Shown here piece by piece: positions 6,751-22,255 of a DNA stretch of 22,255 bases. The DNA is from a virus. The stretch lies in the IMG/VR virus record IMGVR_UViG_3300008448_000735, positions 1 through 22,255 of that record. One strand, written 5' to 3'. Each line of letters opens with the position of its first letter. The first letter of the stretch is position 1. The position numbers and the translations under genes were made by a program. A model generated the notes under the pieces. That model was not told where the DNA came from. It did not search any database and was given only the letters and a program-made list of their open reading frames with translations.

Positions 6751-7572
6751 ATGGCAAATTACGGAATTTATAAAAGGTTAGGATATAATTTTGACGATTC
6801 TTCGTTAGGAATTATTAATCTTTCTCAAGAAGCAAAAGACCATCTAAATTCTACACCTAGCTTACTTTTAGATTGGCAGAAGAGAGATATTGCAGATTCG
6901 AATGTTTCTGGTTATGTAAAAAATCCAATGGATGACCTTTACATATCATTTCGTTCAAATGCTAATTCAATATTTACCGTTGCAAATAATGATCCTGCAA
7001 ACACTTGGAGCAGTTTCGATGCTGCAAATTTATTGATAAGTGTTTCAAGTTCTCTTGTAGCATCTCTTGATAGATTCAAGAGCCATACTGATAACATTTC
7101 AGGTGTTGCTGCTATTGAATCTGGAGGTGTTGACGCTGGAACACATCCATACAAAAAAACAGCAGCAGGAATAGGAAAGTTATTAGTTTACATAACAAGC
7201 GAATCAGATAGTATCTTAAATGCATCTCCAATACTAGGCAGTTTTACAAGTTTGTTTGTTGCAGATAGTTTTTCATCAAATTCAAATGTAATTATTTCTG
7301 ATAGTGCGACAGTAAATGCTGCTGTAAATTCGGGCGGCGGTATCTGTATTCTAACTTTAAGTCAAGCTAATGTCATAGCATCTCATATGAATACTGCAAA
7401 TGCTTTGATTGAGACAAGAAGAAATCACGATGTTCAGTTTTTTAGAAATTCATTGTCAGTAATTTCAGACTTTGGAAAAACACAAGAATTTGCAAATATG
7501 GGTGAAGTTGAGCACAATCTAGCCAATAATTATATTGGTACCGACAAACTACTTTCTAGAATTAACTCATAA
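6751..7572 (+). CDS. Uncharacterised virion-region protein
   Basis: A 273-residue protein that I do not recognise. The start has a strong ribosome site (GGAGAAAA, 5-12 bases upstream). The N-terminus (GIYKRLGYNFDDSSLGIINL) looks globular. The middle is Ser/Asn/Ala-rich and helical, with DAANLLISVSSSLVASLDRF near 90-110. The part from 210 on is helical and charged (HMNTANALIETRRNHDVQFF, then QEFANMGEVEHN). No signal peptide, membrane segment or catalytic motif is seen. Being between the needle gene and gp25 in a tight operon, it is probably a baseplate or hub-associated structural protein, or a chaperone for one. Its stop codon lies inside the CATAAATA box that precedes gp25. Confidence 0.75.
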   Translation: MANYGIYKRLGYNFDDSSLGIINLSQEAKDHLNSTPSLLLDWQKRDIADSNVSGYVKNPMDDLYISFRSNANSIFTVANNDPANTWSSFDAANLLISVSSSLVASLDRFKSHTDNISGVAAIESGGVDAGTHPYKKTAAGIGKLLVYITSESDSILNASPILGSFTSLFVADSFSSNSNVIISDSATVNAAVNSGGGICILTLSQANVIASHMNTANALIETRRNHDVQFFRNSLSVISDFGKTQEFANMGEVEHNLANNYIGTDKLLSRINS

Positions 7573-20175: not shown

Positions 20176-20412
20176 ATGTATGCTAAAGTAAGAGACCATG
20201 ATAACTTGGTGCGAGATATGAGTTCCAAAGCTGTTCTAAATACTGACAAAGAAGGTTTGCAAGAGTATCTTCGTAAGAGAGACCTTGCAAAGAAGCAGCA
20301 AGAAGAGCAGTTTGAAACAAAGAATCGTTTGGAAAAAATAGAACAAGATATGTCAGACATAAAAACTTTACTGAAAGAACTTGTAAACTTAAGGTCAAAA
20401 GATGGCAATTAA
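20176..20412 (+). CDS. Small charged coiled-coil protein
   Basis: A 78-residue protein. The first 25 residues (YAKVRDHDNLVRDMSSKAVL) resemble the start of small proteins found next to structural genes in T4-like phages. Residues 28-75 form a charged helix with heptad-like hydrophobics (LQEYLRKRDLAKKQQEEQFE, then LEKIEQDMSDIKTLLKELV). This predicts a coiled coil that could oligomerise. It begins 2 bases after the giant gene stop and overlaps the next gene by 11 bases. I do not know its function; adaptor or scaffold in the fibre region is a guess. It has no strong Shine-Dalgarno, so coupling to the giant gene is likely. Confidence 0.75.
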   Translation: MYAKVRDHDNLVRDMSSKAVLNTDKEGLQEYLRKRDLAKKQQEEQFETKNRLEKIEQDMSDIKTLLKELVNLRSKDGN

Positions 20413-20719
20413 TCAATTAACAACTGCCAATACATTCCAGCATTGGTTGACGGCTACACAGTCTTTAATTTCAACAGCCAATACTTTGACTGATGGTAAC
20501 GGTGCGACATTTGTTGCCAACACGAAACTTGATGTTTCAGGTACAGGTTCTACTCTAAACGTAAGAACATCTTCTGCTATCAATCAGTTATATGTCAATA
20601 GTGGAAATCTATTAATTGCCGATGTTACTAGTCTTACAGGAACTGCAAACACAGCAATATATACTAAAATTGCCGCAGCAGAAGCATCAGCTCTAGCATT
20701 TGCGATTGCATTAGGTTAA
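20402..20719 (+). CDS. Small fibre-region protein
   Basis: A 105-residue protein with a ribosome site AAGG 6-9 bases before ATG 20402. The first 45 residues (INQLTTANTFQHWLTATQSL, then ANTLTDGNGATFVANTKLDV) look like the N-terminal segments of fibre-type proteins of marine T4-like phages, in which a helix of type TFQ.W...TQ.LI is followed by Asn-rich strands. The rest is Ser/Thr/Asn-rich with alternating hydrophobics (LNVRTSSAINQLYVNSGNLL), ending in an Ala-rich helix. It could be a structural adaptor that attaches a fibre. Its N-terminus stands alone here, as if a longer fibre protein had been divided into separate genes. Function is inferred from composition only. Confidence 0.75.
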   Translation: MAINQLTTANTFQHWLTATQSLISTANTLTDGNGATFVANTKLDVSGTGSTLNVRTSSAINQLYVNSGNLLIADVTSLTGTANTAIYTKIAAAEASALAFAIALG

Positions 20720-20741: not shown

Positions 20742-21068
20742 ATGGCAAACAACTTTAAAAATTACTTTTTGAAAAATGCTACCACAACAGCAGCTAATGT
20801 GTATGTTGGTCAAGCAGCAACTCAGGCTACAATTATCGGTATGACAATCAGTAATACAACAGCATCACCGATTAGTTGTAATGTAACCATAGTTTCTGGT
20901 GGTACCACTTACTTTATGATACAGAATGCCACTATCTCTAACGGTGGTGCATTAGTACCTGTTGGTGGTGACCAAAAACTAGTTATGGAAGCTGGTGACT
21001 ATATGCAAGTTCAAACATCAGCAACTAACTCAGCTGATGTGATTGTATCAGCTCTGGAGATTACATAA
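20742..21068 (+). CDS. Small beta-sandwich-like structural protein, first copy of a tandem family
   Basis: A 108-residue protein. It is mainly beta by pattern: NVYVGQAATQATIIGMTISN, then SCNVTIVSGGTTYFMIQNAT, VMEAGDYMQVQTSA and a final VIVSALEIT. The N-terminal stretch from NVYV to TISN matches the C-terminal domain of the next protein (NVYVVPAATSAAIGTITVCN) and the partial gene at 22080 (NVYVVPAATSTVINSIQIAN). It is therefore one of three related units. An AAAGAAAG stretch lies about 8-15 bases before ATG 20742. Likely a virion protein at the tail periphery, with exact role unknown. Confidence 0.8.
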   Translation: MANNFKNYFLKNATTTAANVYVGQAATQATIIGMTISNTTASPISCNVTIVSGGTTYFMIQNATISNGGALVPVGGDQKLVMEAGDYMQVQTSATNSADVIVSALEIT

Positions 21069-21069
21069 T

Positions 21070-22080
21070 ATGTCATACATCGGCAACGAGCCTAATGTAG
21101 GGACTTTTATTGTTGGCGTTGAACGCTTTAATGGTACAGGTTCTTGCACAGAATTTACTCTAACGCAAACAGGCATTCAAGACCCTAATGCAATTGAGGT
21201 TCTTGTTAACAGTATTCAACAAGATCCAACAAATTCATATTCTGTTGCCAATGGTGTAATTACATTTACTGAAGCACCTTCTACAGGTGCAAACAACATC
21301 ATTGTTACTTACCGTGCAACAACAGTTATTACATACGGTAATATACAAGGCAACCAAATATTAGATGGCTCAATCACTCTATCTAAGTTAGCATCTGGTG
21401 TATTACCTGATGCAAAGGCTAACTCTGCAGCAGTATATGCCAATGGTGCGTTTATCTCGGCTAACTCTGCTGGTGTATATGCTAACGCAGCATTCGCACA
21501 AGCAAACACAGGTGGTGCTGGTGCATCTTACGCAAACTCTGCATTTCTACAGGCAAACACTCCAAGTTATGTTGCTAACTCAGCTGCAACATATGCTAAC
21601 TCTGCTTTTGCAACGGCTAACTCTGCATCACTATATGCAAACTCTGCCTTCACAAAAGCAAATAATGCAGGTTCAAACGGTTCTTTCTCTGTAACAGGAA
21701 CAGGTATTGCAGTTTCTCTAGTTGGTACCGCAATCACTGGTTACAAGATTCTTGGTCAAATTGTAACAACTGCAAACTCAATTTCAAATGTCTATGTTGT
21801 TCCAGCAGCAACAAGTGCAGCAATCGGAACTATTACTGTCTGTAACGGTACAGCAACCGATGTTCTGTTTGACCTTGTAATGAGACCATCAACAGAAGCA
21901 TTAGCCACAAAACATTATTTACTAAAGAGTATAACAGTACCTGCTGCTGATACACTTATCATAGATAGTGGTGTGACACTTAACACAGGTGCGATTCTAG
22001 CAGCAAATACAATCGGTGGCAACGCTTCAGCAGCCGCAGCCGGTATTTCTGTTCACGCTTATGGAGTTGAAATCGTATAA
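21070..22080 (+). CDS. Fibre-like protein with N-terminal domain, Ala/Asn repeats and C-terminal beta domain
   Basis: A 336-residue protein starting at ATG 21070, with GGAGA 9 bases upstream; an in-frame ATG at 21043 lies inside the previous gene and has no such site. Residues 1-85 form a beta domain (VERFNGTGSCTEFTLTQTG, then NNIIVTYRATTVITYGNIQG) like the N-terminal fibre modules of tailed phages. NQILDGSITLSKLASGVLP (about 97-115) is a typical fibre linker. Residues about 117-200 are A-N-S-A/Y-A-N-x-A-F repeats. From residue 224 a domain begins with GYKILGQIVTTANSISNVYV that is also found in the flanking genes. It is probably a trimeric tail fibre or fibre-attachment protein. It lacks an obvious receptor-binding tip of known type. 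Confidence 0.82.
   Translation: MSYIGNEPNVGTFIVGVERFNGTGSCTEFTLTQTGIQDPNAIEVLVNSIQQDPTNSYSVANGVITFTEAPSTGANNIIVTYRATTVITYGNIQGNQILDGSITLSKLASGVLPDAKANSAAVYANGAFISANSAGVYANAAFAQANTGGAGASYANSAFLQANTPSYVANSAATYANSAFATANSASLYANSAFTKANNAGSNGSFSVTGTGIAVSLVGTAITGYKILGQIVTTANSISNVYVVPAATSAAIGTITVCNGTATDVLFDLVMRPSTEALATKHYLLKSITVPAADTLIIDSGVTLNTGAILAANTIGGNASAAAAGISVHAYGVEIV
21418..21669 (+). repeat. Degenerate in-gene tandem repeat, mostly 42-bp period
   Basis: Units start with GCTAAC/GCAAAC at 21418, 21460, 21502, 21553, 21616 and 21658. The unit lengths are 42, 42, 51, 63 and 42 bases (14, 14, 17, 21 and 14 codons). Each encodes A-N-(S/T)-x-x-Y-A-N-x-A-F type residues in the fibre-like protein. 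Most units are whole multiples of 7 residues, which suits a coiled-coil-like shaft. Confidence 0.8.
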
Positions 22081-22255
22081 TGGCAAACACTTATAAAATT
22101 CTTGGGCAGTTAAACCCATCAGCAAATACGCAAGGCAATGTCTATGTTGTCCCTGCAGCAACATCTACAGTAATCAATTCAATTCAGATTGCTAATCAAG
22201 ATGCAACAAATGCATCATATAGTTTGATTGTTATACCAGCAACCGACTTTGCAAA
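22080..22255 (+). CDS. Small beta-sandwich-like protein, cut by right window edge
   Basis: The open frame starts at an ATG overlapping the stop of the fibre-like gene as TAATG and runs to the window edge (58 complete codons). It opens TYKILGQLNPSANTQGNVYV, then VPAATSTVINSIQIANQ. This is clearly related to residues from 224 of the preceding protein and more weakly to the 108-residue protein at 20742. It has no independent ribosome site, so translation is probably coupled. Its full length and function are not visible. Confidence 0.8.
   Translation, partial: MANTYKILGQLNPSANTQGNVYVVPAATSTVINSIQIANQDATNASYSLIVIPATDFA

Follow-up and report, generated by a model that had tools for sequence, protein, structure and literature searches.

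A phage jelly-roll domain encoded both as a tail-fibre tip and as free-standing neighbours: a candidate socket for variable downstream proteins

Among the closest described counterparts of the locus reported here are two arrangements at the ends of phage tail fibres. In the sections of the Pam3 account on which we draw (PMC9608196), the tail fibre gp24 is a single polypeptide comprising a helical shaft, a TNF-like β-sandwich and a glycine-rich receptor domain, with gp25 as its chaperone. In long tail fibres of the T2/S16 type, according to the parts of PMC12892980 considered here, gp37 forms a fibre tip with a separate glycine-rich adhesin, gp38, which docks by its N-terminus and carries variable loops. 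The present locus and its relatives, likened by description only, resemble both. The order of shaft, sandwich and glycine-rich part is that of Pam3 gp24 but is spread across genes, with shaft plus head, second head and glycine-rich part encoded separately (loci L004, L005 and L006). As with gp37 and gp38, a separate glycine-rich gene follows the fibre gene or genes in these three loci and in others, outside the stretch analysed here; unlike in that pair, one or two jelly-roll genes lie in between, an adaptor not described in those parts of PMC12892980. We regard the jelly-roll family as a variation on an established type of fibre tip, not as a system of a new type; new from this work are the fused-then-stand-alone tandem of the domain, which belongs to the protein family phrog_1276, and its link to variable downstream proteins.

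The window, that is, the whole stretch of DNA analysed, is the complete IMG/VR record IMGVR_UViG_3300008448_000735 of 22,255 nucleotides, and its end is the end of the record. It contains T4-like baseplate and fibre genes, including one for a 517-aa protein that matches phrog_438 (baseplate wedge) and whose matches at the head of the list, at ~28–31% identity, come from Ochrobactrum phage OC, Pelagibacter phages Mosig and HTVC008M and the Melnitz phages. A 273-aa protein encoded amid the baseplate genes (6751–7572) had no PHROG match at E ≤ 1. The domains of interest, designated A, B and C, lie at the end of the window (Table 1). The whole 336-aa fibre matches phrog_18673, "tail fiber protein", at E 2.6e-6, and a profile seeded with its N-terminal domain collected 59 domains, 45 of them distinct; the stalk, to judge by its repeats, may be helical or coiled. 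The ATG of C overlaps the last base of the fibre stop codon, and in L004 and L005 the full C protein has 113 aa and is followed by glycine-rich proteins. The 105-aa protein that precedes A has a counterpart of 176 aa in L015, with a similar start and end.

Table 1. Features at the end of the window, in positions of the 22,255-nucleotide record.
Feature	Position	Strand	Basis
105-aa protein 5' of A, no family match	20402..20719	+	Genomic context only
A: stand-alone 108-aa jelly-roll protein (MANNFKNY type), directly 5' of the fibre gene	20742..21068	+	Sequence, homology, AlphaFold
Fibre gene, 336 aa; ATG at 21070, stop 22078-22080	21070..22080	+	Open reading frame
Fibre N-terminal domain, residues 1-115 (boundary our own)	21070..21414	+	phrog_18673 match of the whole fibre; profile
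Fibre stalk, A/N/S-rich repeats (YANSAF..)	21415..21696	+	Sequence
B: C-terminal jelly-roll tip of the fibre, residues 221-336 (21730-22077), ~116 residues	21730..22080 including stop	+	Homology, AlphaFold
C: stand-alone jelly-roll gene, first 58 codons, remainder beyond the record end	22080..22255	+	Homology; 113 aa in L004 and L005

A sequence-only reading of the window had proposed that A, the C-terminal domain of the fibre and C share one domain, and BLASTP, profile and PHROG comparisons agree that the three are homologous. The BLASTP E-values are 3e-16 for B–C, 5.7e-4 for A–B and 5.8e-4 for A–C; the pairwise score was reached by none of 2000 shuffles for B–C and A–C and by 2 of 2000 for A–B, so that the A–B link rests on profiles. 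Searches with A-only and with B/C-only profiles both ended on one set of 109 domains, overlapping loci included, of which 61 are distinct in sequence, and hhalign of disjoint sets of 28 A and 34 B/C sequences gave E 7.3e-10 with a probability of 96.5. At E ≤ 1e-3, phrog_1276, annotated as of unknown function in PHROGs v4, is matched by 31 of 31 B/C members and 26 of 28 A members, and the C fragment matches it at E 0.0019. B alone does so at E 5.6e-7, whereas the whole 336-aa fibre used as query does not list this family. The motif of the sequence-only reading, NVYV..AAT....I..I.I.N, occurs as printed in none of the three, being off by one position and in residue class, and the form common to A, B and C is NVYV..AAT...I..[IM].[IV].N. 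As that reading also had it, YKILGQ is common to B (from fibre residue 225) and C (from residue 5); it is absent from A. Pfam gave no match above the cut-off for A, the fibre or C, a search of PDB sequences with the B/C profile returned nothing up to E 1, and a literature search over titles and the beginnings of abstracts yielded nothing pointing to this domain family. The sole PDB sequence match of A, to "Tako8" at E 0.002, was taken as chance, no single stretch of it passing.

The fold of A and B was modelled with AlphaFold from input alignments that had no sequences in common. The model of A is all-β with a mean pLDDT of 94.5; that of B has a mean pLDDT of 89.5, falling to ~60 over the first 10 residues of the folded piece. 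Both are predicted as the same jelly-roll β-sandwich, with several strands that correspond in order and length (18–22, 28–38, 44–52 and 98–107 in A; 25–29, 35–45, 51–59 and 112–121 in B) and an extra short helix at 105–111 in B. The sequence-only reading had made a common domain depend on a common fold, and for A and B the comparison came out in its favour, 27 of the 50 PDB matches listed for A being also in the list for B. The leading solved folds listed for the two are nucleoplasmin-type cores, trimeric phage cement proteins, turret proteins, with that of HFTV1 among the closest, and endospore pilins, the VIA-align Z-scores to the cement proteins and nucleoplasmin-type cores being ~8–10. Those of the trimeric cement proteins of the Helicobacter pylori phages KHP30 and KHP40 are 9.7 (A) and 10.4 (B) for 7dou and 8.3 (A) and 9.3 (B) for 7dn2, over 101–110 residues and at 5–13% identity. 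A baseplate-cup protein of Klebsiella phage KP1 (9f4b, Z 9.1) is listed for B, and among the matches listed adiponectin (Z 8.0–8.1) and C1q heads (Z 7.6–7.7) appear for A only. Since the jelly-roll is a common fold, likeness of this kind is no proof of descent. In the list of 50 predicted viral proteins obtained for B, most are small (~100–130 aa); five exceed 350 aa, two of which are named tail fiber-like (P-SSM2 and S-CAM1).

The history of the family was examined with a midpoint-rooted tree of 59 domains over 117 columns, from which 3 truncated rows including the window's C were omitted and in which 18 of 56 inner branches are open. All A copies form one group (100/100), as do the 8 fused tips (100/95); 4 stand-alone copies, designated D, are sister to the fused tips (joint group 100/91). 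The C copies closest to that of the window make up a separate group (98/97). The A, fused-tip and C groups each run across different phages, and on this sequence-based tree the paralogues seem to predate the divergence of the phages sampled; with such grouping, recent tandem duplication is not supported. Fused tips occur on different shafts (that of the window, that of L006, and shorter ones in L008, L020 and L010). Between L004 and L005, A is 92%, B 89% and C 82% identical, the gene after C 57% (41% without shared glycines), and A is the most conserved paralogue. Pairwise dN/dS over the whole domain is 0.025–0.153 for A, 0.079–0.144 for B and 0.091–0.185 for C (for which L003, with 87 codons, represents the window), by simple Nei–Gojobori counts with dS up to 1.2; in none of the pairs compared does it exceed 1 over the domain, an average that may mask a few selected loop sites.

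Relatives whose sequence runs past position 22255 carry further copies in some records. A 135.9-kb record has one A and five B/C-type copies, the other 13 records searched 0 to 4 B/C-type copies; a 162-kb record has one copy of each type. Any of these records may be a fragment. After A, the 135.9-kb record encodes a tipless fibre, a stand-alone D, a C, three glycine-rich genes, small genes, a mini-fibre, a jelly-roll protein, a glycine-rich gene, a fused-tip fibre and another C. This variation in copy number, together with the capacity of jelly-rolls to bind ligands, would suit a reading in which the copies are tandem receptor-binding duplicates that diversify host contact, B and C themselves binding the receptor. 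We consider it unlikely: the dN/dS values are low, with the reservation about loop sites just given, the paralogues group across phages, and the gene that follows is more variable than the jelly-roll domains. The suggestion of the sequence-only reading that duplication served to diversify host contact finds no support for these domains, and the comparison of the domains among relatives revealed no positive selection.

Of the loci in which gene order was followed, L011–L052 were fetched with A as query, so that A is present in them by construction, and the eight loci L003–L010 with B. Among the latter, A was found in the records of L003–L007 and L010 (E 4.6e-39 in L010); in L008 and L009, both 4-kb pieces, the only A matches were weak and fell on their own B/C copies. 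In relatives extending beyond the end of the window the recurrent order is A, the fibre, B (either fused or replaced by the stand-alone sister D), C, and a variable, usually glycine-rich protein. The gene after A carries the fibre N-terminal domain in 25 of 33 cases in a first sample and in 18 of 20 in a second, in which several contigs of the first recur. The misses among the 33 are L024, L034, L040, L043, L048, HTVC010P, S-TIM5 and one contig end, and in HTVC010P, S-TIM5 and HTVC103P no fibre N-terminal domain was found in the gene immediately following the A-type gene. The next gene after a fused copy is a stand-alone one in 8/8 cases in the first sample and 16/16 distinct cases in the second, the two samples overlapping; the N-terminal profile recognised only 4 of the 8 fused rows. 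This constancy, with the sister grouping of fused tips and D, fits the proposal in the sequence-only reading of a fibre whose head and cap are separate subunits. A-type and B/C-type genes also stand beside fibre genes, as annotated, in the isolates OC, CRP-13 and RHph_Y65. Methylophilales phage Melnitz-2 (L053) is similar in having two A-type proteins, each encoded directly before a gene with the fibre N-terminal domain, one of which is fused to a glycine-rich (PF21722) domain; unlike in the window, no fused jelly-roll tip was found in the 24.3-kb stretch searched, and the A-type genes are annotated as hypothetical.

Downstream of the stand-alone B/C-type copies, a glycine-rich protein, called by simple rules of composition or motif, is the usual neighbour. 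It is the next gene in 16 of 25 rows of the first sample, the remainder being 3 partner jelly-rolls, 3 cut-short frames that read glycine-rich, 1 fibre and 2 ends. In a larger, partly overlapping sample it follows 93 of 138 distinct copies with a next open reading frame, against 8 followed by a jelly-roll and 37 by neither; where these 37 were read, many are other possible tip bodies and a few are unclassified. A glycine-rich gene directly precedes such a copy in only 11 of 141 cases, the next and previous genes being picked by slightly different rules. We use this contrast because the glycine-rich share of all open reading frames of at least 140 aa (275/761) is a poor control, including as it does the genes after jelly-rolls and wrong frames. 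Before removal of A-type copies, stand-alone copies were followed by a glycine-rich gene in 96 cases, a jelly-roll in 11, another gene in 53 and an end in 5, and fused copies by a jelly-roll in 16. Another count, after dropping 27 duplicates, 22 A-type copies and 11 without a next frame, gave 101 glycine-rich, 24 jelly-roll, 20 HLQIR, 6 kelch, 5 proline-threonine and 7 other, of which 3 are HLQIR by eye; the totals differ because gene-calling windows and de-duplication differ. The order of jelly-roll then glycine-rich gene also occurs in the small phages phiPsal1 (31-kb record), whose host is, according to a published abstract, an actinobacterium, and ct2KA10 (39 kb, no annotation). In phiPsal1, a 299-aa glycine-rich open frame with a GTG start lies directly after the jelly-roll (L077:4346-5242), where the record annotates two smaller hypothetical genes.

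The downstream proteins vary in body. PF21722, of which the literature searched made no mention, was matched in all three glycine-rich proteins tested (L004, Melnitz and L161). Those after nine jelly-roll copies are 43–62% identical, or 23–48% without shared glycines, which is not a pure comparison of orthologs because some of the nine are paralogues of one record. Mean identities were computed for cassettes with distinct next proteins of at least 150 aa. In 68 small-phage cassettes, from loci found with the ct2KA10 copy, the mean is 0.76 for the jelly-roll, 0.44 for residues 1–35 of the next protein and 0.30 for its residues 41–150; in 63 cassettes nearer the window the corresponding values are 0.48, 0.29 and 0.36. 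Near the window the start of the next protein is thus not more conserved than its body, and it is only among the small phages that a shared plug is clear. There, 64 of the 68 next proteins begin with MS.SS.KTG...SLL.GN, as do 2 of the 63 nearer the window, and the bodies under this start are glycine-rich in 40, HLQIR-type in 18, kelch-like in 4 and other in 2; the start RP.GY.FP.GL is found in 27 of the 63, all glycine-rich. Both motifs were written after viewing the sequences. Five non-glycine bodies tested had no Pfam match, and for such bodies "adhesin" is therefore a guess. In L206, L208, L219, L221 and L142 the gene after the jelly-roll has a similar short start and a body without a Pfam match, with SIP.TY.HLQIR-like and kelch-like GNATDFGDL repeats. 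In L143, L147, L150, L154 and L158 that gene has a long proline-threonine (PTPTP) run.

The observed homology, the predicted fold of A and B, the gene order and the conservation of the domains against the variability of their neighbour incline us to a reading in which B and C would together make up a constant socket at the end of the fibre, with the downstream protein as the exchangeable receptor binder. The shaft would consist of the fibre N-terminal domain and the repeat stalk, with B as a jelly-roll head at its end; C would cap or extend this head, and the socket so formed would hold a separately encoded, fast-changing adhesin, usually glycine-rich, from the next gene; in relatives this gene is situated shortly beyond the position where the present record stops. 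As some relatives encode a stand-alone D followed by C, the fused and the split head may be two forms that one part can take. A is probably a component of the fibre or of its attachment, perhaps securing the fibre at the opposite end, but could have another position in the virion. We infer that these proteins touch, are oligomers and are located at the tip of the fibre, and likewise that host binding falls to the downstream protein.

Alternatively, the C-type proteins could serve the fibre tip or the glycine-rich protein as dedicated chaperones or assembly factors and be absent from the finished particle, as fits the place of C between the genes for those two proteins and the existence of fibre chaperones that leave the particle, T4 gp38 and, as proposed, Pam3 gp25, in the parts of PMC12892980 and PMC9608196 used here. 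This has little chance of being right in our judgement: as B, this domain is covalently built into the fibre, so that its release is hard to reconcile, and related proteins are labelled virion structural in several isolates, by annotation. Still less probable is that the proteins are capsid decoration (cement) or head-fibre proteins merely placed in a tail-fibre cluster, for although the capsid cement proteins 7dou and 7dn2 are among the best solved folds for A and B and an entry for the capsid of cyanophage Pam1 (7eel) is listed for B, fold alone is silent on place in the virion, B ends a protein with a tail-fibre match, and A and B/C adjoin fibre genes in many loci and in the three isolates named above.

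A wider form of the socket reading can be offered tentatively, as a possibility that we hold less firmly. The phrog_1276 jelly-roll, fused or free and often doubled, might be the constant socket of a modular receptor platform into which interchangeable tips (glycine-rich, HLQIR-type, kelch-like and perhaps proline-threonine) would fit by a short, group-specific N-terminal plug; the platform would be common to T4-like and much smaller phages, including one that infects an actinobacterium, and grip on the host would be changed by the swap of one gene. In viral sequence data, the phrog_1276 domain marks a site adjoining a variable, probably host-recognising gene, and the search for determinants of host range moves from the repeated domain to the gene behind it. 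If the socket reading is true, the domain would aid in identifying which gene of an uncultured phage encodes the receptor binder and in understanding how tips come to be shared between quite different phages.
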